The notes under the pieces: generated by a model
Told to the model about the DNA's origin: nothing
Seen by the model: only the letters and a program-made list of their open reading frames with translations
The model's database searches: none
DNA from: Flavobacterium sp.
GTDB taxonomy: Bacteria; Bacteroidota; Bacteroidia; Flavobacteriales; Flavobacteriaceae
Assembly: GCF_020217025.1 (NCBI RefSeq)
Contig: NZ_JAIWOF010000223.1
Coordinates: forward strand, 1-19,375
Length of the DNA: 19,375 bases
Reading direction: 5' to 3'
Translations under genes and position numbers: made by a program
Shown here: positions 7,829 to 19,375 of the stretch, in pieces
Position numbering within the stretch: the stretch's first letter is position 1
Layout of the letters: each line of letters opens with the position of its first letter

Positions 7829-8233
7829 TTATTGTTCCACAATACATTGATCCATTCTTAATTCTTCGAAAAGTTCATCATATCCAATAAATCTGCCTTT
7901 TACTTTTACCAAATCGCCATTTTTCACTTTTTTAATTTCTTCTTTAGTTAGCAAAGCAATAAGCTTATCATCTAGAATTATACTGTTTTGTTTTAAATCC
8001 AATGCGGTAACATTTCCGTATATGGAAATAGTTTGATTAGCATAAGTAGCGATTGAAGAATCAGGATTGTTAATAAAGCGTTGCGATAATTCGTTCACAC
8101 TAGTCTCAAAAGCCGAATTTTCTGATGCTATGTCCCGATGTGACTGATACAAGAAAAAATACAATGCGATAATGGATAGTAATAATCCAAAAACAGAACC
8201 TAATAGTAATCTAAATTTCAATTTTCTAGTCAT
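7829..8233 (-). CDS. Membrane-anchored OB-fold (tRNA_anti-like) protein
   Basis: The 134-residue protein has a short basic N-terminus (TRKLKFR), one transmembrane helix (about residues 8-29) and a linker. The C-terminal domain of about 75 residues has OB-fold character: ISIYGNVTALDLKQNSIIL, then GDLVKVKGRFIGYDELFEEL and a final strand (MDQCIVEQ). The pattern is that of the tRNA_anti-like family found in Bacteroidota envelope proteins. Because the domain should face the periplasm, nucleic-acid binding is unlikely; the family name reflects only the fold. The gene starts 16 bp from the divergent cytochrome gene and is followed by the DUF5777 barrel gene in the same direction, so the two probably share a transcript. 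Function is unknown. Confidence 0.8.
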   Translation of the reverse strand: MTRKLKFRLLLGSVFGLLLSIIALYFFLYQSHRDIASENSAFETSVNELSQRFINNPDSSIATYANQTISIYGNVTALDLKQNSIILDDKLIALLTKEEIKKVKNGDLVKVKGRFIGYDELFEELRMDQCIVEQ

Positions 8234-8249
8234 AACTAATATATTTAAA

Positions 8250-8612
8250 ATGAAAAAAATGATACAAAAAATCTCCTTGTTAGTGCTTATTTTTACAACG
8301 ATAAGTTGTACAGAAGACAGTATTTCTGATTTAAGTGAAACTGAAATCCCAACTTCAATAAGCTATCAGAACGATGTAAGACCTATTATTCAAAACAATT
8401 GCTTAAACTGTCATGGTAACCCTACCAACTTTGGAGCACCAAATTCTCTTACTACATACGAGAATGTAAAGGCTTCGGTTTTAAATAATTTAATTGACCG
8501 AATTTCAAGAGTTGAAGGAACATCTGGAGCTATGCCTTTGGGAGGACCAAGATTATCACAAAACGACATCAACATCATAATCGAATGGCAAAATGCTAAT
8601 TTTCCTCAATAA
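8250..8612 (+). CDS. Monoheme c-type cytochrome-like lipoprotein
   Basis: The start at 8250 is preferred over an upstream in-frame ATG at 8172, because it places a lipoprotein signal at the N-terminus (MKKMIQKISLLVLIFTTISC, Cys20 as the lipidated residue) and avoids overlap with the divergent OB-fold gene. The mature part of about 100 residues resembles small cytochrome c domains: SYQNDVRPIIQNNCLNCHG, with one CxxCH, and a later AMPLGGPRLS whose Met is the probable sixth heme ligand, then NIIIEWQNANFPQ. It should be a membrane-tethered periplasmic electron carrier. The YceI gene follows 15 bp downstream, so the two are probably co-transcribed. Only a TATATTTA box (8240-8247) lies before the ATG, so the transcript could be nearly leaderless. 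Confidence 0.85.
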   Translation: MKKMIQKISLLVLIFTTISCTEDSISDLSETEIPTSISYQNDVRPIIQNNCLNCHGNPTNFGAPNSLTTYENVKASVLNNLIDRISRVEGTSGAMPLGGPRLSQNDINIIIEWQNANFPQ

Positions 8613-8627
8613 CTAAATCTTATACTT

Positions 8628-9167
8628 ATGAAAACGAAACTATTTTTGGTTTTACTTTTGATTACCCATTTCTCTTTCGCTCAAGACAAATTAATCACTA
8701 AAACCGGAACCATTACTTTTGAAGCTTCAGTGCCTTCATTTGAAGAAGTAAAGGCAAAAAATTCAGGTGTTTCTTGTGTGATTAATACCAAAACGGGCGA
8801 AATTGCTTCACTTGCCTTATTAAGAGGGTTCCGATTTAAGGTGGCGTTAATGGAAGAACATTTTAACGAGAATTATGTGGAAAGCGATAAATTCCCTAAA
8901 GCCACTTTTAAAGGAAAAATAGAAAATTTCGACCTTTCTAAGATTACTACAACAGCAACCAATTATACCATTAAAGGAAAATTAGAACTGCATGGAAAAG
9001 CAAAAGACATTTCAATAATCGCAAAAATTAAAAAAGGAAAAGATGGCATAGAAATTGTATCTGACTTTACCGTCAATACAGATGACTTTGACATTGAAAT
9101 TCCAAGTGTAGTGAGTAAAAAAGTTACCAAGAAAGTAAATGTTCGCTTTGAATTTGCATTGAATTAG
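8628..9167 (+). CDS. YceI family periplasmic lipocalin-like protein
   Basis: The 179-residue protein has a signal peptide (to about SFAQ, residue 19) and the YceI fold signature. TKTGTITFEASVP, then GEIASLALLRGFRFKVALMEEHFNENYVESDKFPKATFKGKI, then TIKGKLELHGKAKDISI make up the family's lipocalin-like barrel. YceI proteins bind isoprenoid or amide lipids in a central cavity; some are linked to quinone handling or stress. Here the gene follows a cytochrome lipoprotein and sits opposite a DUF5777 barrel, so a role in an envelope redox or lipid-carrier process is a fair inference but not shown. Length is normal and all core strands appear present. Confidence 0.92.
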   Translation: MKTKLFLVLLLITHFSFAQDKLITKTGTITFEASVPSFEEVKAKNSGVSCVINTKTGEIASLALLRGFRFKVALMEEHFNENYVESDKFPKATFKGKIENFDLSKITTTATNYTIKGKLELHGKAKDISIIAKIKKGKDGIEIVSDFTVNTDDFDIEIPSVVSKKVTKKVNVRFEFALN

Positions 9168-9183
9168 TATTTTATTATATTTA
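9154..9183 (+). promoter_or_regulatory. Candidate promoter TTG-N19-TATATTTA
   Basis: TTG (9154-9156) and TATATTTA (9176-9183) are 19 bp apart, inside the 17-23 bp spacing usual for Bacteroidota promoters; the -7 box differs from TAnnTTTG only in its last base. The start point would be near 9190, about 20 bp before the DUF4412 ATG. The -33 element lies inside the end of the YceI gene. Confidence 0.5.
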
Positions 9184-9209
9184 CATTATTATACAAACAA
9201 GAAACTCAC

Positions 9210-9884
9210 ATGAAAAAAATGACACAAATTGCATTAACTGCCCTATTATTTGTAGGAATTACAGCCAATGCACAAACACAATTAAAAAAAGGTTCTGTAA
9301 CTTACAACATGACAATGCCAAGCGCAAGTGAGGAAATGGCCGCAATGGGAGAAAGCACTATAACTGTTCATTTTGACGAAACCATGCAAGCTACAGATAT
9401 GAGTATGATGGGCGGCATGATGATGATGAAAACTATTGTTCCTAATGAGAATAAAAAAGATTCTAAAATGACAATGGAAGTAATGGGTATGAAATATGAA
9501 ATTACTGATGTAGGAGAAGAAGCTTCAAAAACCTCTAAAGGTCTTAGTAATTTAGATGACGCTAAAGAAATTGTTTACGACAAAAAAGACACTAAAGAAA
9601 TCGTAGGATTTAAATGCTATAAAGCAATTATAACTATGAACGATGGTTCAAAAAACACATTCTACGTTACAGATGCAATTGCACCTCAAGCGCCTTCAAA
9701 TCCTAAAGTAGCGCTTAAATTAACAGGATATCCATTAGAAATGAAGGTTAAAACAGCTCAAGGCGACATGGTTATGACAGCTACAAAATTTTCAAAAGAA
9801 ATTCCTGCAGATGCTTTTAAAGTAGGCGAAGGTTTTACTAAAGTAACTATGGAAGAATTCCAAAAACAAATGGGTGGTATGTAA
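9210..9884 (+). CDS. DUF4412-like, methionine-rich secreted protein
   Basis: The 224-residue protein has a signal peptide (cut near ANAQ-TQL, about residue 22). The body resembles DUF4412 domains: KKGSVTYNMTMPSASEEMA, then DAKEIVYDKKDTKEIVGFKCYKAII, then FYVTDAIAPQAPSNP and GYPLEMKVK. About 25 of the 224 residues are Met (roughly 11%), with a dense run near residues 63-74 (MSMMGGMMMMK). Such runs in periplasmic proteins sometimes bind Cu(I); that is an idea, not shown. The family has no known enzymatic role and is thought to be an envelope protein. The gene has its own promoter-like element and a strong terminator, so it is a single-gene unit downstream of yceI. Confidence 0.75.
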   Translation: MKKMTQIALTALLFVGITANAQTQLKKGSVTYNMTMPSASEEMAAMGESTITVHFDETMQATDMSMMGGMMMMKTIVPNENKKDSKMTMEVMGMKYEITDVGEEASKTSKGLSNLDDAKEIVYDKKDTKEIVGFKCYKAIITMNDGSKNTFYVTDAIAPQAPSNPKVALKLTGYPLEMKVKTAQGDMVMTATKFSKEIPADAFKVGEGFTKVTMEEFQKQMGGM

Positions 9885-9905
9885 TACTAACTCTTTTATG
9901 ATAGT

Positions 9906-9935
9906 AAAAAGCACTGAGAAATCGGTGCTTTTTTT
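9906..9935 (+). terminator. Intrinsic terminator of the DUF4412 gene
   Basis: GCACTGA (9911-9917) pairs with TCGGTGC (9922-9928), including one T-G wobble, closed by a GAAA loop and followed by seven T. It starts 21 bp after the stop codon. Confidence 0.85.
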
Positions 9936-9983
9936 GTATCCTAATTTAGAAAATTAAAAAGTCTATCTAAAAGTTCTATTTTA

Positions 9984-10044: not shown

Positions 10045-10464
10045 ATGGAAAAAAATAAAAAAAGATCGGACTGTCCAATTAGTTGTACCCTTGATATTTT
10101 GGGCGATAAATGGTCGTTATTGATTATTAGAGATATGATGTTTCGTCAAAAATCGACTTATGGGGAATTTTTAAAATCGGAAGAAAAAATTGCTACGAAT
10201 ATTTTGGCTGCAAGACTACAAAATTTGGAAGAAAATGAACTCATCGAAAAACTAGAACACCCAGAAAGTAAAGCAAAGGTGTTATATAAGCTTACGCCAA
10301 AAGCAATTGATTTATTACCCATTATTGTAGAAATCCATTTGTGGGCTGATAAATACTTTACCATTCCAGCCGACATAAAAGCCATGATAAATGATACCAA
10401 AAAAGGAAAAGAAGCCTTTATAAAAACCACAACGCAGCAATTAAAAAAACAAATAGCGGGTTAG
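10045..10464 (+). CDS. HxlR family winged-helix transcriptional regulator
   Basis: The 139-residue protein is a compact HxlR domain. CPISCTLDILGDKWSLLIIR (residues 10-29) is the family signature, followed by the helix-turn-helix (YGEFLKSEEKIATNILAARLQNLEENELI) and the wing (EHPESKAKVLYKLTPKA). A dimerisation helix with EIHLWADKY ends the domain. Two cysteines (10 and 14) near the N-terminus could act as a thiol sensor, as in some HxlR proteins, though that depends on the subfamily. The dyad in front of the gene points to autoregulation. There is no divergent target gene; DUF4412 upstream has its own terminator and the gene downstream is a foreign-looking cassette, so the regulon cannot be named. 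Confidence 0.92.
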   Translation: MEKNKKRSDCPISCTLDILGDKWSLLIIRDMMFRQKSTYGEFLKSEEKIATNILAARLQNLEENELIEKLEHPESKAKVLYKLTPKAIDLLPIIVEIHLWADKYFTIPADIKAMINDTKKGKEAFIKTTTQQLKKQIAG

Positions 10465-10500
10465 AAAATAGTATTTTGAACTAATGTTTCATAAGCTAAT

Positions 10501-10525
10501 TTGTAAGAATTTTTTCTTATATTTG
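10501..10525 (+). promoter_or_regulatory. Candidate promoter just before the NTPase cassette
   Basis: TATATTTG (10518-10525) matches TAnnTTTG exactly. A TTG at 10501-10503 is 14 bp upstream, shorter than the usual 17-23 bp. It lies 5 bp before the left cassette site and could drive the NTPase gene from outside the cassette. Confidence 0.4.
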
Positions 10526-10530
10526 AAAAA

Positions 10531-10606
10531 CGCTAGTTTATAGCGCTTAAACACCCCAAATTGGGTAGATTGGCGATACTTTGAAGCGCATATATACAAG
10601 TTGGCG
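10531..10606 (+). repeat. Left attC-like palindromic site
   Basis: CGCTAGT (10531-10537) can pair along its full length with GTTGGCG (10600-10606), using three G-T wobbles. Inside, TATAGCGCTT (10539-10548) pairs with AAGCGCATATA (10584-10594), leaving A10590 as a bulged base. The loop holds a further small hairpin, CCCAA-A-TTGGG (10555-10565). A competing hairpin CGCTA-GTTTA-TAGCG (10531-10545) is also possible. Confidence 0.5.
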
Positions 10607-10620
10607 GTAATGATACAGAA

Positions 10621-12504
10621 ATGAACATAGAACAAGTAGAAATTATAAAGCAATATTTGAGTATTGAAACAAACTACGCTGTCATTATTAACGGACAGTA
10701 TGGTGTTGGCAAGACTCATTTTTACAAAAACTATCTATCTCCAAAAATTAAAGAAGTATCCCTTGCGAAAGATTACAGGAAAAAATTTACTCCAATTCAT
10801 ATTTCTCTTTTTGGGTTTAAAAGTTTAGATGAAATTCAGACCGCAATTTTTGTAGAACTTTATCCAATTCTTAGACATAAAGGTTTAAAATTAGCTGCTG
10901 GGATTGGCAAATCCTTAATAAGGGGAATTGCACAAATAAAGGGTGCAGGAGATATTGATGATTATATAGGTGATATAAGTCAAGATGCTGATGATTGGTT
11001 AAAGTATGACGAATTAGTCATTTGCTTTGATGACTTGGATAGAAAAAGTGAAAGTTTGGATTTACGTGATGTATTCGGCTTCATAAATTCGTTAGTTGAA
11101 AATCAAGGTGCGAAAATTATAATTATAGCTAACGAAGAACAACTAATTAAAGATGAGAATTATTCTTCAAGTCTCAGAGAAAAGGTAATTGGTGTTTCAA
11201 TTCAATTTGAACCAGACGTTGAAAGTGTATTTAAACAAATTATTGATACGAGATATTCATCTTCTTCAAAATCATTCTATGCTTTTCTAGAAATTAATTC
11301 TTCTCGGATTGTAGAAATTATTCAAGTAAACCAAAATAACTTTAGAAACTTAATTTTCTTTCTTGAACACTTTAGGACAATCTACTATCCATTGGAAAAT
11401 GAATTTCAAGTAGATAAAGACTTCAATCTTTTAAAAGAAGAAAAACTCCAATCGGTTCTCGATTTTACAATTGCAATTACCATAGAGTATAAACTTGGAT
11501 TAATAAACTCTACAAATTTTAAAGAAGTGAAAGAACTTGGTCAAGTTTCCTTCTCAAATTTTGATTTTAGCTTGCTACTTAAGAACAATAAAAAAGATGA
11601 AAAGGAAGAAAAAACTCCGACTTACATAGAGACGTTTAGAAACAAATATTTTACAAACAAAAAGTATTATTTCTTTAAATCCGTATTTGACTATGTCACT
11701 GGAACAAAGTCATTTTGCATTAAGACTTTGAAGTCTGAATTAATGGAGTATTTTATTGTGAAAGATGGAGAAATCCCTGAGCAAGAAATAATACTAAATG
11801 ACTTATCTTACTTGGGTTGCCTAAACTTATCAGACGAAAGCTACAAAAGACTAACTTCAAAAATGCTTGAATTTGTCGATGACGGAAAATACCAACTAAG
11901 ACAGTATGCAACCGTTTTTCATTATGCAACTCGATTTAATAATATCCTCGGCTACAATTTTAAAAACCTAAAAAGGAGATTTAAAAATGGAATAAAAAAT
12001 GGAATTTCTAATTACACGTACAATTACGACTTAGGATTCCATATGTCGGTGAGTAGCGATACAGAATTTATAGATGATGTTATTGAAATAATAAAGTATT
12101 GTGTAGAAATAAATGATTCCTTACAAAAGGTTAATAAAGAGACAGAATTAAAAGAACTATTTGATTTATTCCAAAACGACTATGATTCATTTATAGAAAA
12201 AGTATCCGAGCGAGATAATGAATTAAGATACTCGCCTTTTTGGTTAGAATTCAACTTGAAAAAGGTAGTAAAAACCATAGGACAACTTGAAAATGAGAAG
12301 ATTTGGAAACTAGGACATTATTTTAAAAACAGGTATCATGTTCACATCTACGAAAAGATTTTCCCAGAAAAGGATTTTGTAATTAAGCTTAGAGAAGAAA
12401 TTAATAAGCCAACAAGGAAAAGGAAAGTGAAAAGTTTAAAAAATGCAAGCTTAAACTACCTTACACAGACACTATCTGAATGCGAGAACAACTTCCCGAA
12501 ATAA
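10621..12504 (+). CDS. P-loop NTPase, KAP-like; possible defence protein
   Basis: The 627-residue protein has an N-terminal P-loop NTPase domain. Walker A is GQYGVGKT (residues 25-32). ISLFGFKSLDEIQTAIF (61-77) is a strand-helix often seen in KAP-type NTPases. Walker B is LVICFDDLDR (132-141), and IIIIANEEQ (166-174) is the likely sensor 1 with Asn171. A later FRNLIFFLEHFRTIY could hold the sensor 2 region. Unlike many KAP proteins, no transmembrane helices interrupt the domain, so a cytosolic location is expected. The remaining 350 or so residues are helical and charged, with no domain I recognise; an effector or sensor role there would be a guess. Related NTPases occur in phage-exclusion systems, and isolated position in a cassette-like insertion fits that, but nothing here proves it. 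No Shine-Dalgarno is evident; ATG 10621 is the only start that includes the full P-loop domain. Confidence 0.75.
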   Translation: MNIEQVEIIKQYLSIETNYAVIINGQYGVGKTHFYKNYLSPKIKEVSLAKDYRKKFTPIHISLFGFKSLDEIQTAIFVELYPILRHKGLKLAAGIGKSLIRGIAQIKGAGDIDDYIGDISQDADDWLKYDELVICFDDLDRKSESLDLRDVFGFINSLVENQGAKIIIIANEEQLIKDENYSSSLREKVIGVSIQFEPDVESVFKQIIDTRYSSSSKSFYAFLEINSSRIVEIIQVNQNNFRNLIFFLEHFRTIYYPLENEFQVDKDFNLLKEEKLQSVLDFTIAITIEYKLGLINSTNFKEVKELGQVSFSNFDFSLLLKNNKKDEKEEKTPTYIETFRNKYFTNKKYYFFKSVFDYVTGTKSFCIKTLKSELMEYFIVKDGEIPEQEIILNDLSYLGCLNLSDESYKRLTSKMLEFVDDGKYQLRQYATVFHYATRFNNILGYNFKNLKRRFKNGIKNGISNYTYNYDLGFHMSVSSDTEFIDDVIEIIKYCVEINDSLQKVNKETELKELFDLFQNDYDSFIEKVSERDNELRYSPFWLEFNLKKVVKTIGQLENEKIWKLGHYFKNRYHVHIYEKIFPEKDFVIKLREEINKPTRKRKVKSLKNASLNYLTQTLSECENNFPK

Positions 12505-12514
12505 GAATCACTAC

Positions 12515-12644
12515 TGCCAACATCACCTATACGCAATCAGGGGTTTCGTGCTTCGTAGGGCAGGAAAGTAGTAAAATTAAAGTTCAGTTCTTCGTAGGAA
12601 GTTCAGTGGTAAAATCCCTGCCTGCGTATAGCTGAGAACCGTTG
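12515..12644 (+). repeat. Right attC-like palindromic site with internal duplication
   Basis: TGCCAAC (12515-12521) faces GTTG (12641-12644). Inside, TATACGCA (12528-12535) pairs perfectly with TGCGTATA (12623-12630). After a 2x2 internal loop, CAGGGGTTT (12538-12546) pairs with AAATCCCTG (12612-12620) with one wobble. The loop between 12547 and 12611 contains an imperfect direct duplication (12545-12577 and 12583-12615) sharing CTTCGTAGG and a GTAAAAT end. Confidence 0.5.
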
Positions 12645-12691
12645 AAATTTCAATCTAAAAAGTTGTTTATGGCAACTCGCCATTTTTAAAA

Positions 12692-12722
12692 CAAAAAAAT
12701 CCCGAGCCAACACTCGGGATTT
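12692..12722 (-). terminator. Intrinsic terminator of valS
   Basis: Read leftwards, AAATCCCGAG pairs with CTCGGGATTT (12713-12722 with 12697-12706) around a 6-base loop, followed by a T-run (the A-run at 12693-12699 on this strand). It lies 41 bp after the valS stop codon. Confidence 0.85.
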
Positions 12723-12733
12723 ACTATTTTTAG

Positions 12734-12754
12734 ATTCTGAATCGAGTTCAGAAT
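12734..12754. repeat. REP-like palindrome
   Basis: ATTCTGAA (12734-12741) and TTCAGAAT (12747-12754) form an 8-bp stem with a TCGAG loop. On the minus strand it is preceded by GTC. From memory, units of the type GTCATTCTGAA...TTCAGAATCT are a common intergenic repeat in Bacteroidota genomes; copy number cannot be seen here. Confidence 0.55.
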
Positions 12755-12763
12755 GACAAAATG

Positions 12764-15391
12764 CTATTTCAAACTCGCTAAACTTTGTTCTAAAGTCGCA
12801 ATTTTAGCTAAAGCGTCGGCTTCTTTTTTGCGTTCGTTGGCGATTACTTGTTCAGGTGCGCCGGCTACGAATTTCTCGTTAGACAATTTCCCTTGTACTG
12901 AGCGTAAGAAACCTTTCGTGTAGTTCAACTCTTCGGTTAATTTTGCAATTTCTGCTTCTACATCAATGTTTCCTTTAATTGGAATAAAATATTCATTCGA
13001 TTTCACACGATACGATAACGCACCATCTACTTTATCTGCAACATATTCTAACGTAGTCAAGTTTCCTAACTTCTGAATCACCGAATCAAAATACGTTGAT
13101 GCTTTTTCGTTGTTCACCACTTTTAATTCCATCGCATCTTTAAACGGAATGTTTTTGTCTTTACGAATCGTTCTAATTCCAGAAATTACTTCGGTTGCAA
13201 AATCAAAATCGGTAATTAATTTTTCGTCAAATGCTTTTGCTTTTGGCCACTCGCCTACTATCAACGCTTGTTCTGGCGTTCTTTCGGCAATATGATGCCA
13301 AATTTCCTCCGTTAAAAACGGCATGAACGGATGTAACAATTTCAAGTTCGCTTCTAACATTTCAATTGCTTTTTCAAACGTAGCGCGGTCAATTGGTTGT
13401 TGGTAACCTGGTTTGATCATTTCTAAGAACCACGAACAAAAATCGTCCCAAACCAATTTGTAAATCGCCATTAACGCGTCTGATAATCTGTATTTATCAA
13501 AGTTATCTTCGATTTCGGCTAAGGTTTGTTGCAACTTCGCTTCGTACCATTCGATGGCAACTTTTGAAGATTCTGGTTGTGCAATATCCGCCACTTCCCA
13601 ACCTTTGATTAGTTTGAAAGCATTCCAAATTTTGTTAGAGAAACCTTTTCCTTGGTTGCATAATTCTTCGTCGAATAAAATATCATTTCCTGCCGAAGCA
13701 CTCAATAACAATCCCACACGAACTCCATCAGCACCAAATTTTTCAATTAGTCCAAGCGGTTCTGGAGAATTTCCTAAAGATTTCGACATTTTACGACCTT
13801 GCTTATCACGAACTAATCCTGTTAAATATACGTTTGAAAATGGTTTTTCGCCTGCATATTCATAACCTGCAATAATCATACGCGCTACCCAGAAGAATAA
13901 AATATCGGGACCCGTAACTAAATCATTGGTAGGATAATAATATTTAAAATCTTCACTTTCTGGATTTAAAACACCTCCAAAAACCGCCATTGGCCATAAC
14001 CATGAAGAAAACCAAGTATCTAGGGCGTCAGCGTCCTGACGTAAGTCAGCAGTGGTCAGTGTTGCGTTGCCAGTTTTTACTTTCGCAAGCTCAAGGGCTT
14101 TCTCGATGTTTTCCGCTACTACGAAATCTTCTTTTCCGTCACCAAAATAGTACGCCGGAATTTGTTGTCCCCACCACAATTGGCGTGAAATATTCCAATC
14201 GCGAATGTTGTTTAACCAATGCGCATACGTATTGTTAAAACGGCTTGGATATAATTTGATTTCGTCTGATTCTAAAACGGCTTTGATAGCAGGTTTTACT
14301 AAATCTTCCATTTTTAAGAACCATTGGTCGGATAATCTTGGTTCGATTACCGCTTTTGTTCTTTCAGAAGTTCCTACTTTATTCAAATGCGTTTCGGTTT
14401 TTGCTAACGCTCCGATTGTTTCTAATTCTTTCGCAATTTCTTCACGAACAACAAATCTGTCTTTTCCTTGATAATGCAATCCGAAAGAATTCAAAGTCGC
14501 ATCTTCATTGAAAATATCGATGATTTCTAAATTGTGTTTATCACCTAACGTTTTATCGTTTGTATCGTGAGCAGGCGTTACTTTTAAACAACCTGTACCG
14601 AATTCTACATCAACATATTCGTCTTCGATGATTGGCACTACTCTACCACAAATTGGAACGATTGCTTTCTTCCCTTTTAAATGCGAAAAACGTTCGTCAT
14701 TTGGATTGATACAGATTGCAGTATCTCCAAAAATTGTTTCTGGACGAGTCGTTGCAACGGTTAAGAAATCTTCTGAACCTTCGATTTTATATTTGATGAA
14801 ATATAATTTTCCTTGACGTTCTTCAAAGATTACTTCTTCGTCTGATAAGGTAGTTTTAGCTTCTGGATCCCAGTTTACCATTCGGTAACCGCGGTAAATC
14901 AAACCTTTGTTGTATAAATCTACAAATGAGTGAATTACCGATGCTGACATATCGTCATCCATCGTAAACTTAGTACGACTCCAATCGCAAGAACAACCTA
15001 ATTGTTTTAATTGCTCTAAGATGGTTCCTCCGTATTTTTCGGTCCAATCCCAAGCGTGTTTTAGGAATTCTTCGCGTGTTAAATCGTTTTTATTGATGCC
15101 TTCTTCTTTTAACTTCGCTACTACTTTCGCTTCGGTTGCAATTGAGGCATGGTCGGTTCCTGGCACCCAACAAGCGTTGAACCCTTTTAAACGCGCACGA
15201 CGAATTAATACATCTTGAATGGTGTTATTCAACATGTGTCCCATATGTAAGACTCCCGTTACGTTTGGTGGCGGAATTACAATGGTGTACGGCGTTCTGT
15301 GGTCGGGTTTGGATGTAAAATAATCGTTTTTCATCCAGTAGTCGTACCACTTTTGTTCTACTTCTTTAGCGTTGAATTGTGCAGGAATCAT
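12764..15391 (-). CDS. valS: Valine--tRNA ligase
   Basis: The 875-residue enzyme charges tRNA-Val with valine in the cytosol, at ATP cost. The start at 15391 ([19 protein letters not shown]) is preferred over an in-frame ATG 20 codons upstream (15451), whose extra residues come from a tandem-repeat leader and match no ValRS N-terminus. Visible are [13 protein letters not shown] (HIGH-type motif at residues 49-52), [17 protein letters not shown] and the CP1 editing insert ([20 protein letters not shown]). [10 protein letters not shown] and the KMSKS motif (534-538) follow, then the anticodon-binding domain and a C-terminal coiled-coil arm (about 805-875). All catalytic elements are intact. The gene ends next to a strong terminator. 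A TACTTTTG box lies on its strand at 15492-15499, and an 8-bp tandem repeat lies between box and start. Confidence 0.97.
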
Positions 15392-15405
15392 TATATTTTT
15401 TTCTT

Positions 15406-15445
15406 GTTTAATTGTTGAATCGTTGAACGGTTGAATCGTTCGTTT
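15406..15445. repeat. 8-bp tandem repeat in the valS leader
   Basis: Four consecutive imperfect units GTTTAATT, GTTGAATC, GTTGAACG and GTTGAATC occupy 15406-15437, with a degraded fifth (GTTCGTTT, 15438-15445). The array begins 15 bp upstream of the valS start codon and lies in its probable 5' leader. Confidence 0.7.
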
Positions 15446-15491
15446 TAACATTCCAAAACTTACTTTGGTATGCTTTTTGTTTTACTAATTG

Positions 15492-15499
15492 CAAAAGTA
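15492..15499 (-). promoter_or_regulatory. Candidate -7 box of valS
   Basis: On the minus strand this reads TACTTTTG, an exact match to TAnnTTTG, about 100 bp before the valS start codon. No TTG at the expected -33 spacing is visible. The leader would include the 8-bp tandem repeat. Confidence 0.4.
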
Positions 15500-15588
15500 A
15501 CTATATAACGAAAATAAAAAAAATGTTAGGAGTAGTTTGTTGGTTGCTTATATTTAATTATTTTTACAACAACCTATTAATTTATAAG

Positions 15589-16017
15589 ATGATGAAAAAA
15601 TTACTTGTTTATTTAACTGTATTAGTTGGGATGGCTTCTTTTGCTCAAACGGGTCCAAAGATTGAATTTAAAGAAGAAACCATCAACTATGGTGAGGTAG
15701 AAAAAGGAAAAGATGATGGAATTAGAATTTTTGAATTCACAAATACGGGTGATGCTCCACTAATTATTACCAATGCAAAATCGAGCTGTGGTTGTACCGT
15801 GCCTGAATGGCCAAAAGAACCAATTGCTCCAGGTAAAAAAGGGCAAATTAAAGTTCAGTATAACATGAATCCGGGTCCTATTAGTAAAACAATTACTATT
15901 GAAAGTAATGCGGTAAACAAACCAAATGGTATGGTTCCGTTACGAATCAAAGGAACGGTAATTGTTAAGGAAGAAATTAGTCCGTTAGTTAAAAAGAAAA
16001 CGTTTCCAAATTCATAA
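15589..16017 (+). CDS. DUF1573 domain secreted protein
   Basis: The preferred start is 15589 (or the adjacent ATG at 15592), since it opens a normal signal peptide (MMKKLLVYLTVLVGMASFAQ). An in-frame ATG at 15523 would add 22 residues with a second hydrophobic run. The mature part, about 120 residues, is a single Ig-like DUF1573 domain: INYGEVEKGKDDGIRIFEFTNTGDAPLIIT, then SSCGCTVPEWP with the conserved CGC, then IAPGKKGQIKVQYN and TITIESNAVN. The family is widespread in Bacteroidota as periplasmic or surface proteins with no fixed role. TATATTTA (15549-15556), 33 bp before the start, is one base from the -7 consensus. A strong UUCG-loop terminator follows the stop. Confidence 0.88.
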   Translation: MMKKLLVYLTVLVGMASFAQTGPKIEFKEETINYGEVEKGKDDGIRIFEFTNTGDAPLIITNAKSSCGCTVPEWPKEPIAPGKKGQIKVQYNMNPGPISKTITIESNAVNKPNGMVPLRIKGTVIVKEEISPLVKKKTFPNS

Positions 16018-16020
16018 ATA

Positions 16021-16049
16021 AAAAGTCCCAATTCGTTGGGACTTTTTTT
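16021..16049. terminator. Bidirectional terminator with TTCG loop
   Basis: AAAAGTCCCAA (16021-16031) pairs with TTGGGACTTTT (16036-16046) around a stable TTCG tetraloop, with a T-run continuing to 16049. It sits between convergent genes; its T-run overlaps the stop codon of the leftward gene. Confidence 0.9.
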
Positions 16050-17370
16050 ATAGGATTTTTTTTAAATTAAACTTAAAAGTAATTTGTTCATTTTTACGTT
16101 CAATTATAATCGTAATTAATTTTCCATCTTCCGATTGAAATACATCAGTTATATTCTGAATGGATAATTGATTAATCCCTTTATTGTTCAGTTTAATGAT
16201 TTTATCACCTACTTTGAGTCCTGCTATAGCTGCGGGAGAATCTTTCCTAATACTATAGATTTCAAAAATTGGTTTTAATTCATATTTATACTTATTCCTA
16301 TCGCCTCCTTTTTCAAAATAAAATTCGTCTAAGTTTAGAAGTCCAATTGCGGAATTTACATTAACCCCTTCCTTCACCCATTGAAAACCAAAATGTTGTA
16401 CTTCAATTCCAGACATATTGTAATTGAATGGTAAATCATAAGCTCTATTTTTTTGAAAATAAAAATCACTATTCTTATAATCCAGTACCCAATTGAATCG
16501 CTTTATTACTTCGCCACCTAGTGAACCATTTCTATTGCTATAAATGCTAATTCTTTTAAAGAAGACACTGTCAGGATAAGAAACAATAACGTTTTTAAAT
16601 TCATAATTTGAAAGTACAACATTTTTTATTCTGGCTTTTTTTCCTTCAATATCCCCAGATAATCCTCTCCCTAAAACATCGTTGATATAAAAATTAGAGC
16701 ATTTAATTTTATCATTTTCAAAAAGCCACAAGCCTTCACCCAAACCCGTATCAAATAATAGTTTTAAAGTTGCTTCCTTGCCTTCCAATTCGGTATTAAT
16801 TGACACATAAGGCTTATTTTCATCAATCTCAACCTTACATTTCGACATATTTCTTCTTGCTTTATCAATTTGTTTCCTACTATTTTTAAACAATGTTATG
16901 CACTTTTTATCATAATCAATTTTCGTAACATACTGTTTAAAAAAAGTGCTTCCTAAAATACCATTAATTGGTAATCCTATTTTATTAATCAAAGTAATTT
17001 CTTGATCAGGAATTAATAAAATCTCAAAATTACTATCTTCAAGTTCATTGATTTTTAATGTATTATTTTTAGAAAGATAAGCAATAATCGACTGATCATT
17101 TCCAACACCTCTAACTTCTATTTTATCCGTTTGGTTTAAAACTAAAGAATCATTTTCTGGAAAACTAAACAACATGCTCCTATCTGAACCCGTATCTACA
17201 ATCATTTTGAGAGGAACTCCGTTAAAACCAACATCAACAATAATAAGATTATGAGTAAGTTCAAAAGGAATTTTAATTGTATTCTTTTTTGAATTCCAAT
17301 TAAAACTAGACTGCGACTGAAGCGTTACAGTAACCATGAATAAAAATACTATTTGAATAATCTTTCTCAT
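16048..17370 (-). CDS. Retropepsin-like aspartyl protease with PDZ domain
   Basis: The 440-residue protein has a signal peptide (MRKIIQIVFLFMVTVTLQSQ). Two retropepsin-type active-site motifs lie in one chain: IVDTGSDRSMLF with Asp59, and LLFDTGLGEGLWLF with Asp207. A hydrophobic NGILGSTFFKQYV stretch lies between them and a related GGEVIKRFNWVLDY follows the second. A C-terminal PDZ domain follows (about residues 360-435; IRKDSPAAIAGLKVGDKIIKLN). Such proteins are predicted periplasmic or envelope proteases, with the PDZ domain binding peptide ends; substrates are unknown. Two DTG motifs in a single chain could build the bilobal site that retroviral enzymes form as dimers. The gene is intact, with a -7-like TACATTTA on its strand at 17387-17394, and diverges from the aminotransferase gene. 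Confidence 0.85.
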   Translation of the reverse strand: MRKIIQIVFLFMVTVTLQSQSSFNWNSKKNTIKIPFELTHNLIIVDVGFNGVPLKMIVDTGSDRSMLFSFPENDSLVLNQTDKIEVRGVGNDQSIIAYLSKNNTLKINELEDSNFEILLIPDQEITLINKIGLPINGILGSTFFKQYVTKIDYDKKCITLFKNSRKQIDKARRNMSKCKVEIDENKPYVSINTELEGKEATLKLLFDTGLGEGLWLFENDKIKCSNFYINDVLGRGLSGDIEGKKARIKNVVLSNYEFKNVIVSYPDSVFFKRISIYSNRNGSLGGEVIKRFNWVLDYKNSDFYFQKNRAYDLPFNYNMSGIEVQHFGFQWVKEGVNVNSAIGLLNLDEFYFEKGGDRNKYKYELKPIFEIYSIRKDSPAAIAGLKVGDKIIKLNNKGINQLSIQNITDVFQSEDGKLITIIIERKNEQITFKFNLKKIL

Positions 17371-17497
17371 CTAAAAATTTATAACCTAAATGTAAGAAAT
17401 TAAGACTTCACTTTTATGTTTTTAACATTTTTTAGTATCCGTTTTTAGTTATATCACAAAAAAAATTGCAATTTTGTGCATCTTTAAAAAACAGATT

Positions 17498-18691
17498 ATG
17501 CCAAAAGTTTCCATTAAAGGCCAACAAATGCCAGAATCACCAATTAGAAAATTGGTACCTTATGCTGAAATTGCTAAGAAAAAAGGTCATAAAGTATATC
17601 ACTTAAATATTGGGCAACCTGATATTAAAACACCAGAAGTTGCTTTAGAAGCTGTAAAAAAAGCTGATATTTCAGTTCTTGAATACAGTCATTCTGCAGG
17701 TTTTGAAAGTTACAGAACTAAACTTTCTCAATACTATAAAAATCATGGGTTACCTATAGATACTCAAGATATCATCATTACAACTGGTGGTTCTGAAGCA
17801 TTACTTTTTGCTATGGGAAGTACAATGGATGCAGGTGATGAAATTATTATCCCTGAACCTTTTTATGCTAATTACAACGGATTTTCAACAGCTTCTGGTG
17901 TGCATGTAGTTCCTGTGATTTCAGGAATTGAAACTGGATTTGCATTACCTCCAATCGAGGCTTTTGAAAAGTTAATTACGCCTAAAACAAAAGCAATCTT
18001 AATTTGTAATCCAGGTAATCCAACAGGTTACTTATATTCTCAAGAAGAAATTTTAAAATTAGCAGAAATAGTTAAGAAACATGATTTATTCTTAATTGCT
18101 GACGAAGTTTACCGTGAGTTTATTTATGATGGTGACAAACATTTTTCAGTAATGAATGTTCCTGGTTTAGAAGAGAACGCTATTATGATTGATTCGGTTT
18201 CTAAACGTTATAGTATGTGTGGAGCTCGAATTGGTTGTATTGTTTCTAAAAACAAAGAAGTAATGGCAACAGCAATGAAATTTGCTCAGGCTCGTTTAAG
18301 CCCTCCTACTTATGCTCAGATTGCTAGTGAAGCTGCATTGGAAACTCCTCAAAGTTACTTTGATGATGTTATTTCAGAATATAAAGATCGTAGAGATACT
18401 CTTATAACAGAATTAAACAAAATTGAAGGAGTTAAAGTAGCGACTCCAAAAGGAGCATTTTATTGCATCGCTAAATTACCAATTGATAATGCAGATAAAT
18501 TTGCACAATGGTTATTAGAATCTTATGATTTAAATGGTGAAACCGTTATGGTTGCTCCAGCCGCAGGATTTTATTCAACACCAAATATTGGTTTAGACGA
18601 AGTTCGTATTGCTTATGTATTGAAAAAAGACGATTTGATTAAATCTGTTCAAATTTTAAAAGAAGCAATAGCTGTTTACAACAAGTTATAA
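17498..18691 (+). CDS. Class I/II PLP-dependent aminotransferase
   Basis: The 397-residue enzyme belongs to fold-type I aminotransferases (COG0436-like). The start at 17498 (MPKVSIKGQQMPESPIRKLV) is preferred; an in-frame TTG at 17474 would add eight residues without family support. Recognisable elements are YHLNIGQPDIKTPE, the glycine-rich TTGGSEALLFAMG and NPGNPTGY (from Asn171). IADEVYREFIYDG carries the PLP-contacting Asp and Tyr, and SVSKRYSMCGARIG holds the Schiff-base lysine Lys236. A typical C-terminal domain follows, with an ARLSPPTYAQ segment and a YVLKKDDL end. The amino-donor preference (aspartate, alanine or aromatic) cannot be read with certainty. It stands alone, with its own terminator, and diverges from the protease gene. 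Confidence 0.93.
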   Translation: MPKVSIKGQQMPESPIRKLVPYAEIAKKKGHKVYHLNIGQPDIKTPEVALEAVKKADISVLEYSHSAGFESYRTKLSQYYKNHGLPIDTQDIIITTGGSEALLFAMGSTMDAGDEIIIPEPFYANYNGFSTASGVHVVPVISGIETGFALPPIEAFEKLITPKTKAILICNPGNPTGYLYSQEEILKLAEIVKKHDLFLIADEVYREFIYDGDKHFSVMNVPGLEENAIMIDSVSKRYSMCGARIGCIVSKNKEVMATAMKFAQARLSPPTYAQIASEAALETPQSYFDDVISEYKDRRDTLITELNKIEGVKVATPKGAFYCIAKLPIDNADKFAQWLLESYDLNGETVMVAPAAGFYSTPNIGLDEVRIAYVLKKDDLIKSVQILKEAIAVYNKL

Positions 18692-18710
18692 TTCAATATA
18701 AAATTATAAT

Positions 18711-18744
18711 AAAAAAGAGTCCACGTATTCGGACTCTTTTTTTT
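18711..18744 (+). terminator. Intrinsic terminator of the aminotransferase gene
   Basis: AAAAAAGAGTCC (18711-18722) pairs with GGACTCTTTTTT (18731-18742) around an 8-base loop, followed by more T. It starts 19 bp after the stop codon. Confidence 0.9.
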
Positions 18745-18766
18745 ATCCTTAAGTCTTAGATTTTAC

Positions 18767-18797
18767 AAAAAAAAAGCGGCACTAAGTACCGCTTTTT
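18767..18797. terminator. Terminator of the T9SS type B protein gene, probably bidirectional
   Basis: AAAAAGCGG (18771-18779) pairs with CCGCTTTTT (18789-18797); ACT and AGT can pair inside after a mismatch. Read leftwards the hairpin ends in a T-run (the A-run at 18767-18775), 17 bp after the stop codon of the leftward gene. A T-run on the other side also allows stopping rightward transcripts. Confidence 0.8.
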
Positions 18798-18814
18798 TTG
18801 TTTTAAATATTTAA

Positions 18815-19375
18815 TTATCGTTTTAATGAGAAGTGTGCTTTGAATTGTTTCTTAGCTCCGTTCTCTAAATAATCAACAGTGAACCAGTAATCGGTCGAAG
18901 GAAGGTTTTCTTGGTTGTAAGTACCATCCCAAAACTCAACACCTCTCAACTGTTTGATTAGTTTTCCGTATCTATCAAAGATGTAGATTACATCGGTATC
19001 TTGTAAACCAGCGATAAACCAACCATCATTGATACCATCTCCATTTGGTGTAAAATAATGAGGATAATCAATCACCAATAATGTATAAGTTAAATAAGTA
19101 CATCCTTGTGTATCAACTACGGTTATAGTATGAGGTCCAGAACTTACATTAGTAAACACATTGGAAGATTGTAAAGTTCCTTCATCTAATGAATACATTA
19201 GTGTTCCGCTTCCACCTGTTATATTCACTGTTAAAGTGGCATTTCCACTAAAATAAGCACTTTGGGTTACAGTCATACTTGCCGCTGGTGTTACTGATGT
19301 AACATTTGCAGTTACCATAGTTGTAACATCTGAAGAAACACAATTCGTAATGCTATTTGTAGCAATTACACCATA
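18815..19375 (-). CDS. T9SS type B sorting domain surface protein (5' partial)
   Basis: The reading frame is open to the right edge (an in-frame ATG at 19318 is internal, with 19 more open codons beyond), so only the last 186 residues are seen. They contain part of a repeat-type Ig-like or SprB-like segment (AYFSGNATLTVNITGGSGTL, then SSGPHTITVVDTQGC). The C-terminal type B sorting domain follows: YPHYFTPNGDGINDGWFIAG, then IYIFDRYGKLIKQL, then FWDGTYNQENLPSTDYWFTV and FKAHFSLKR. The TPNGDGxND phrase is its hallmark. Such proteins are large adhesins or gliding-related surface proteins exported by the type IX system; the full protein is likely several times longer. The gene ends at a strong terminator. 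Confidence 0.9.
   Translation of the reverse strand, partial: YGVIATNSITNCVSSDVTTMVTANVTSVTPAASMTVTQSAYFSGNATLTVNITGGSGTLMYSLDEGTLQSSNVFTNVSSGPHTITVVDTQGCTYLTYTLLVIDYPHYFTPNGDGINDGWFIAGLQDTDVIYIFDRYGKLIKQLRGVEFWDGTYNQENLPSTDYWFTVDYLENGAKKQFKAHFSLKR

Follow-up and report, generated by a model that had tools for sequence, protein, structure and literature searches.

A 19,375-nucleotide stretch of Flavobacterium sp. (NCBI RefSeq assembly GCF_020217025.1, contig NZ_JAIWOF010000223.1), analysed whole and called the window below, carries a single open reading frame (ORF) at 10621-12504 on the plus strand that encodes 627 amino acids and sits between a gene for an HxlR-family regulator (10045-10464) and valS (12764-15451, minus strand). 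The ORF matches the KAP-family P-loop NTPases (Pfam KAP_NTPase, 4.8e-12), and the PADLOC model of the candidate defence family PDC-S49 (1.3e-64) covers residues 8-618 of the 627, which makes it a full-length match. A left box, GTTGGCG (10600-10606), lies 14 bases 5' of the ORF start, a right site opens with TGCCAAC at 12515, 10 bases 3' of the stop codon, and the boxes facing the gene are complementary (GTTGGC on the left, GCCAAC on the right). We consider it highly probable that positions 10500-12683 form an integron-type platform with one gene cassette, served by a recombinase and with exchange at G|TT.

Two sites around one gene

The right site (12515-12647, plus strand) has the parts of an attC-type site: the R'' box TGCCAAC (12515-12521), stem arms within 12523-12542 and 12616-12635, a spacer (12636-12640) and the R' box GTTGAAA (12641-12647), with 1 nt and 5 nt between boxes and stem. 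The full inverted repeat (arms 12523-12546 and 12612-12635, 83% complementary) is the longest pair among those listed for 10300-12900. Folded as a single DNA strand the site gives z -2.17, with 6 of 200 shuffles as good, which is weak evidence alone. An alignment of 19 such sites, made with MAFFT and a hand-written structure (rows L073 and L077:8212 left out), gives the family geometry: AAC, one base, a 12-bp stem, a 6-bp inner stem, a variable loop, five bases and GTT. Stem covariation is 0.575, against 0.153 in shuffles and 0.07-0.16 with the structure slid, and 92 cells are changed on both sides against 26.7 in shuffles. From the integron consensus GTTRRRY only GTTR is kept, in all 19 sites. 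The fifth stem pair (alignment columns 13 and 125) is T.G in 14 of the 19, which on the bottom strand would give an A/C mismatch that might serve strand choice.

Two covariance models were built from sites of this kind. R1, built from these 19, scores the window site at 86.4 bits, but was trained on it; R2, built from 18 sites of other genomes with none from the own genome (training-set covariation 0.542 vs 0.183 shuffled), recovers exactly 12515-12647 at 42.8 bits (E 8.3e-7, 96 kb searched). The same site finds few strong relatives by blastn (best 1.1e-8 and 1.3e-5), which fits sites whose fold, not sequence, is conserved. Everywhere else in the window R1 stays at or below 10.2 bits, and we rejected HxlR as part of a cassette on this ground; the regulator gene (plus strand; Pfam HxlR 1e-16) flanks the cassette on its left, as valS, called by ORF and homology, does on its right.

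By its features the left site belongs with attI-type landing sites and not with attC sites. It consists, on the plus strand, of a promoter-like pair, TTTGTAA (10500-10506) and TATATTTG (10518-10525), a palindrome (10529-10590) with arms 10529-10548 and 10571-10590 and an inner stem pairing 10552-10556 with 10563-10567, and the core TATATACAAG|TT (10591-10602). By blastn, 10500-10625 has matches in a number of species from the same genus (2.5e-13 for the best one not in the window itself), and the long ones share one layout: the promoter-like motif, a palindrome with arms of differing sequence, then TATANACNAG and GTT. TATANAC.AGTT is invariant in all 19 aligned attI sites; upstream, TAnnTTTG is found in 14 of them and ATTT[G/A]TAA in 17. 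TAnnTTTG is a promoter element of Bacteroidota, and the motif is a putative promoter reading into the cassettes; two of the four loci with an intact recombinase gene (L104 and L105) are without its strict form.

In relatives TTTGTAA ends the recombinase gene, and at 10500-10506 it may therefore be the last remnant of a lost one. Twelve of the 19 attI sites are still readable as the 3' end of that gene (..P F D D L stop), the window site not among them. The left site folded as a single DNA strand gives z -2.24 (5 of 200 shuffles as good), again weak alone. Arm covariation is 0.312 vs 0.176 in shuffles, arm pairs with double changes are no more frequent than in shuffles (16 vs 16.2), and a pair of local hairpins suits the sites just as well as a single long hairpin (0.313 vs 0.312), so that the two are not separable.

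A preliminary description of this stretch, made from its letters, had placed the gene between two attC-like sites of one shared plan. Its distances between the boxes and the ORF agree with ours, as does the complementarity of the facing boxes, and the right site is borne out as attC-type by R2. The left one is not: we rejected a second attC around the gene because this site has no R'' (RYYYAAC) box and matches the landing sites beside recombinase genes. The shared plan falls with it, the left site having the promoter-like motif and the right one the R''/R' boxes with their unequal spacers.

Signs of cassette exchange, and the platform in relatives

In integrons the first bases of a cassette derive from its own attC, so that R' before a gene is complementary to R'' after it. 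We compared boxes at 121 array sites taken from 151 R1 matches (cut-off, solitary and repeat-locus matches excluded; one site counted twice in overlapping loci). Of 99 neighbouring pairs, 82 agree at all 4 variable bases between R' of the first site and R'' of the following one, as do 72 of the 80 pairs separated by under 1.5 kb; the two boxes of a single site agree in 8 of 121 cases, and other pairs in 50 of 651. On these counts, the matching between neighbours is a signature of cassettes exchanged at G|TT, and GTTGGC/GCCAAC in the window obeys the same rule.

Duplicated and shared cassettes point the same way. One array (L109, reverse complement 8315 and 9634, 0-based) holds an identical 481-bp cassette twice, at 100% identity; the identity ends 2 nt (TT) past the G at the right end, and on the left it goes on for 28 more bases, the attC sites that precede the two copies being alike there. 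A related cassette occurs in two species with 84% identity over 706 bases, and its 40-base flanks are only 40% and 33% identical. Among 94 cassettes compared, 13 pairs are listed in which the match spans 60% or more of the shorter member: the two just described, three more whole-cassette pairs (67-87%, two within one genome), and eight others formed by one 268-bp stretch and the attC ends of other cassettes. From the R'/R'' rule and the exact duplicate, the cassette in the window would be 2,041 bp long (10601-12641, plus strand), with the TT of attI as its first bases and the G of the R' box in attC as its last. The crossover would fall between 10600 and 10601, by analogy with the G|TT described for integrons (PMC8876359) and from the box matching and the exact duplicate.

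The platform has a conserved 3' end (12659-12683, plus strand; AAAGTTGTTTATGGCAACTCGCCAT), with a terminator-like stem ATGGC/GCCAT and a T run behind it. Searched as AAAGCTGTTTATGGCTACTCGCCAT with at most 3 mismatches, this tail occurs in 17 copies in 9 of 81 same-genus genomes, and its reversed control in none. By eye, attC-like sequence precedes all 17 tails, at a distance of some 45 and 60 bases in two of them, and no empty platform, with a landing site joined directly to the tail, was seen among the 17. An inverted repeat at 12687-12732 adjoins this tail and is possibly the valS terminator.

A search of 39 relatives turned up no copy of the NTPase gene. In the closest relative, G012 (valS 93% identical over 2.2 kb), the neighbours of valS are a landing site whose palindrome has decayed, another ORF (170 aa), an attC and the same 3' end; homology to the window begins at 12657. 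About 110 kb away in that genome, homologues of the left neighbours in the window are followed by a landing site, an ORF that we read as PhzF-like, an attC and again the same 3' end. The window thus combines the left side of one G012 platform with the right side of another (7829-9937 and 12657-19173), with HxlR as an extra; tblastn did not find HxlR in the valS-adjacent stretches of 20 relatives. Since the neighbours on the two sides lie at separate G012 platforms, a rearrangement between platforms is likely. G012 has five tails in all; its top score with the integron integrase model nevertheless stays at XerC/D level (8.5e-20).

Other elements also appear to treat these sites as attC sites. 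At L336 a group II intron, confirmed by Rfam, interrupts an attC inside its R'' box, and the same intron-end motif follows NNNYAA at three more loci (L105, L181 and L236), where the introns were recognised by the motif only. In three of the four loci a matching R' lies 562-926 bases upstream. Group IIC-attC introns are described as invaders of attC sites (PMC8876359), and the apparent introns within R'' boxes are independent evidence of the nature of these sites.

Integron cassettes are already known to carry phage defence genes. We scanned 10 of 17 cassette ORFs from the own genome and G012, mostly the longer ones; PADLOC matched three of the 10, an AbiLi-like ATPase, a PDC-S15 FRG protein and a SoFic-like protein, and others among those scanned are cation efflux, ParE-like and hydrolase proteins. 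Homologues of PDC-S49 occur in 12 other genomes of 395, with 25-32% identity.

A recombinase beside the landing sites and its spread

In four relatives (L103, L104, L071 and L105) an intact tyrosine recombinase gene shares the orientation of the cassettes, and its stop codon directly abuts the landing site, which is followed by the first cassette. This neighbourhood of gene and attI was seen in relatives and on a Chryseobacterium plasmid, not at the window. In ten recombinases aligned from relatives R204, K229, H294, R297, H320 and Y329 (L103 numbering), which we take to be the catalytic residues, are invariant. The best-matching solved sequences are XerA-type, then an integron recombinase, against which 15 residues face 59. 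From K..R to H..RH the spacing is 64-65 residues in nearly all measurable Bacteroidota rows (69 in one), vs 106 in IntI1; the comparison had 71 rows, from 56 of 80 loci and 15 other sequences. Judged by these sequences, the recombinase is without the IntI-specific insert.

Five further proteins also show the 106-residue spacing and were taken as IntI by that spacing alone. In a quick tree of 67 rows (L108, L313, L317 and L323 left out) these five and IntI1 form one clade with support 100 and all Bacteroidota rows outside it; the deeper order, including a placement of the Bacteroidota proteins as sister of IntI, is without resolution. Four of the recombinases score 198-223 bits with the XerA-type model NCBIfam NF040815 (cut-off 220, one above) and 204-212 bits with the integron integrase model TIGR02249, below its cut-off of 265. 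An AlphaFold model (mean pLDDT 80, pTM 0.52) has as its top Foldseek matches XerA (5hxy) and an integron recombinase (2a3v).

These proteins have an extra N-terminal domain of ~65 residues, in which F20 and W38 are invariant in 13 rows. We had presumed a likeness to HARP, a domain that reads forked DNA, before any search. Foldseek with a model of the domain (pLDDT 76) then placed the two SMARCAL1 HARP chains of 4o66 at the top, below significance (E 0.28 and 0.45, probability 0.57 and 0.44), and Pfam and PDB sequence searches gave no HARP match; the models are suggestive of a weak resemblance. A shorter variant that starts near model residue 70-85, and so has no N-terminal domain, is common in the phylum, several copies with premature stops.

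In the own genome, a draft, one related recombinase was found (L102, contig C156, 3271-5010, minus strand, 580 aa). Its N-terminal part resembles, by eye, three repeats of the HARP-like unit, and a landing site without a palindrome follows. The core of that landing site, ATATTTACTAG|TT, is similar to that in the window, and a role of this recombinase in trans is possible for that reason. In a tblastn search of 36 loci (E<=0.01), recombinase remnants beyond the last codons were 32- and 78-residue pieces at L062 (the same place as L179) and L180; L063 and L072 had only distant recombinase matches.

Counts with R1 (E<=0.01) are lower bounds, with 83 candidates scored per genome in a set of 40 genomes (own and relatives) and 8 per genome in a set of 390 Bacteroidota genomes. 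Sites of the attC type occur in at least 25 of the 40: the own genome has at least 23 sites, and at least 22 of 24 others of the same genus and at least 2 of 15 from other genera carry them. In the phylum set they occur in at least 148 of the 390 genomes and at least 81 of 168 genera. The ten-sequence recombinase alignment, searched against 395 phylum genomes, has matches in 117 at 1e-60, a cut of our own choice, and in 345 at 1e-40; by our reading, most of the remaining matches are at XerC/D level. In these near-identical samples, with kinship ignored, attC hits occur in 87 of the 117 genomes with the recombinase vs 61 of 273 without it.

The best 80 recombinase matches come from Flavobacterium, Algoriphagus, Cyclobacterium, Algibacter, Winogradskyella and others, and include metagenome-assembled genomes labelled Spirochaetota, Firmicutes and an archaeon. 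In other families chained hairpin sites adjoin the gene, most clearly at L237, L240, L246, L247 and L250, and 5 of 20 loci show no link. These links are illustrative and have no proper null: the hairpin finder also fires in coding sequence, and it links 15 of the 20 loci on the array strand and 13 of the 20 on the opposite one, a palindrome being visible from either strand. A plasmid of Chryseobacterium sp. SNU WT5 from rainbow trout (L336, 12001-22126) carries a recombinase 70% identical to that of L103, a landing site and five R1 matches; the system can therefore sit on a plasmid.

Interpretation and comparison with known systems

These results suggest the following mechanism. A XerA/IntI-like tyrosine recombinase would bind one attC strand folded as a hairpin, and the folded site would be exchanged with the landing site between G and TT. 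Cassettes would thereby be captured behind the landing-site promoter, which would drive the first of them, and could later be lost or replaced, and the platform tail would end transcription. At the window the recombinase gene is gone except perhaps for its last codons, leaving a platform that is either stranded or served in trans, possibly by the recombinase of contig C156. We give even chances to a broader proposal: a second, phylum-wide integron system of Bacteroidota that recombines folded hairpins without the IntI insert, in which a XerA-like recombinase with a HARP-like N-terminal domain reading forked DNA serves numerous scattered platforms that have no recombinase gene (promoter, palindromic attI, cassettes and terminator) and that stock defence and other adaptive genes.

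Several observations weigh against the integron-type platform and its cargo as we read them. No recombination was observed; we infer it from sequence. No recombinase gene lies within the window. Among neighbouring pairs, 17 of 99 are without a full R'/R'' match, 8 of them among the 80 close pairs. Over the whole own genome R2 listed 13 sites with that in the window absent (150 of 3,146 candidates scored). In the phylum, 30 of the 117 recombinase-bearing genomes have no R1 match, and 61 genomes with matches have no recombinase, with 8 candidates scored per genome. The KAP NTPase probably has a role in phage defence, the least certain step, which we read from family models alone. Finally, the fetched flanks of the 12 distant PDC-S49 homologues hold no R1 site, and this family is therefore not typically cassette-borne.

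Three other explanations were weighed. A transposon-like element with conserved ends, the attI side and the tail, could have moved as a unit with the attC as merely its right end; the five G012 tails in different places, several with landing sites, and the ~110 kb between homologues of the two flanks there would suit it. We regard it as unlikely, however, since arrays of many attC sites would also call for exchange within the unit, as would the varying single genes between shared ends. A canonical IntI-type integron sitting in a flavobacterium would have the same layout of attI, promoter-like motif, cassette, attC and box rule, and Foldseek does rank an integron recombinase next to XerA for the relatives' protein. 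Yet that protein lacks the IntI insert, on which ground we rejected this candidate, and has the short spacing; no Bacteroidota row falls within the IntI clade, TIGR02249 scores stay under the cut-off, the gene is co-directional with the cassettes, and the sites keep only GTTR. The canonical integron is thus very improbable. Hardly credible, in turn, is that the two hairpins are RNA features, a 5' leader and a terminator, of an ordinary acquired gene. The left site does follow a promoter-like motif and the tail does resemble an intrinsic terminator, but the R'/R'' matching between neighbours, the exact cassette duplication and the different genes between the same ends would stay unexplained. 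No tRNA or Rfam match was found in the window; a known RNA family was rejected on that ground, and for RNA features in general the Rfam null speaks neither way.

The integron-type platform remains our preferred reading, and the divergent cassette system of the preliminary description gains support from the attC family, the R'/R'' rule and the recombinase at landing sites in relatives. We agree with it that the window has no integrase. It had named two refuting outcomes, conservation of the NTPase with its flanks in all relatives and a lack of similar sites at other genes, and neither was borne out: the gene was found in 0 of 39, a different cassette stands beside valS in G012, and sites like the right one do recur elsewhere under a covariance model, as the same-genus counts attest. 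Among the 17 tails no empty platform was seen. It had proposed to seek a tyrosine recombinase with the IntI-specific insert; the one beside landing sites in relatives has that insert missing.

Published listings include integrons of Bacteroidota (PMC8618304) and intI genes of the Bacteroidetes/Chlorobi group (PMC2426708). For Bacteroidetes proper, IntegronFinder 2.0, which characterises IntI by the additional domain, gives a single complete integron, that of Salinibacter ruber; an earlier version had only cassette-less integrases in this group (PMC9024848). According to a tyrosine recombinase survey, the insert is essential for integron function, yet not fully conserved in the integron-like subgroup (PMC8138268), a remark that may cover some of the recombinases described here; in archaeal integrons that domain is said to be retained (PMC9668308). 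Searches of the open-access literature showed no paper that, by title or abstract, reports arrays of this kind in Flavobacteriia or an integron that works without the insert. Should the arrays recombine, a major phylum has integron-type gene exchange that went largely unnoticed, and folded sites can be handled by other means than the insert called essential in that survey (PMC8138268). The route by which a Xer-type enzyme turns into an integron recombinase then becomes a testable question, and the arrays yield a list of cassettes, some with defence-family matches.

Each known system shares only part of this design. The SMARCAL1 HARP domain (4o66) is the top, merely suggestive Foldseek hit of the N-terminal domain model, but has no counterpart in the Pfam or PDB sequence searches. 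XerA-type recombinases are alike in the NF040815 scores and in the top solved structure, 5hxy; unlike XerA, which is grouped with chromosome dimer resolvases (PMC8138268), the gene here is tied to cassette arrays and adds the ~65-residue domain. Clusters of attC sites lacking integron-integrases (CALIN, in IntegronFinder) resemble the window and the C166 and C95 arrays, which have attC sites with no recombinase seen beside them, whereas the window keeps its attI and, with a single cassette, is below the CALIN threshold of two attC sites (PMC9024848). A further parallel is the chromosomal integron (IntI, attI, attC and the promoter Pc). Both have a landing site by a tyrosine recombinase gene, a promoter (here a promoter-like motif) pointing towards the array, cassettes of one ORF each with palindromic sites, a G|TT crossover (inferred here), the R'/R'' rule and, apparently, invasion by group II introns. 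In contrast to it, the system described here has a recombinase with an extra N-terminal domain and no IntI insert, a recombinase gene co-directional with the array, a palindromic attI, sites that conserve only GTTR, and several platforms per genome, some of them without a recombinase.

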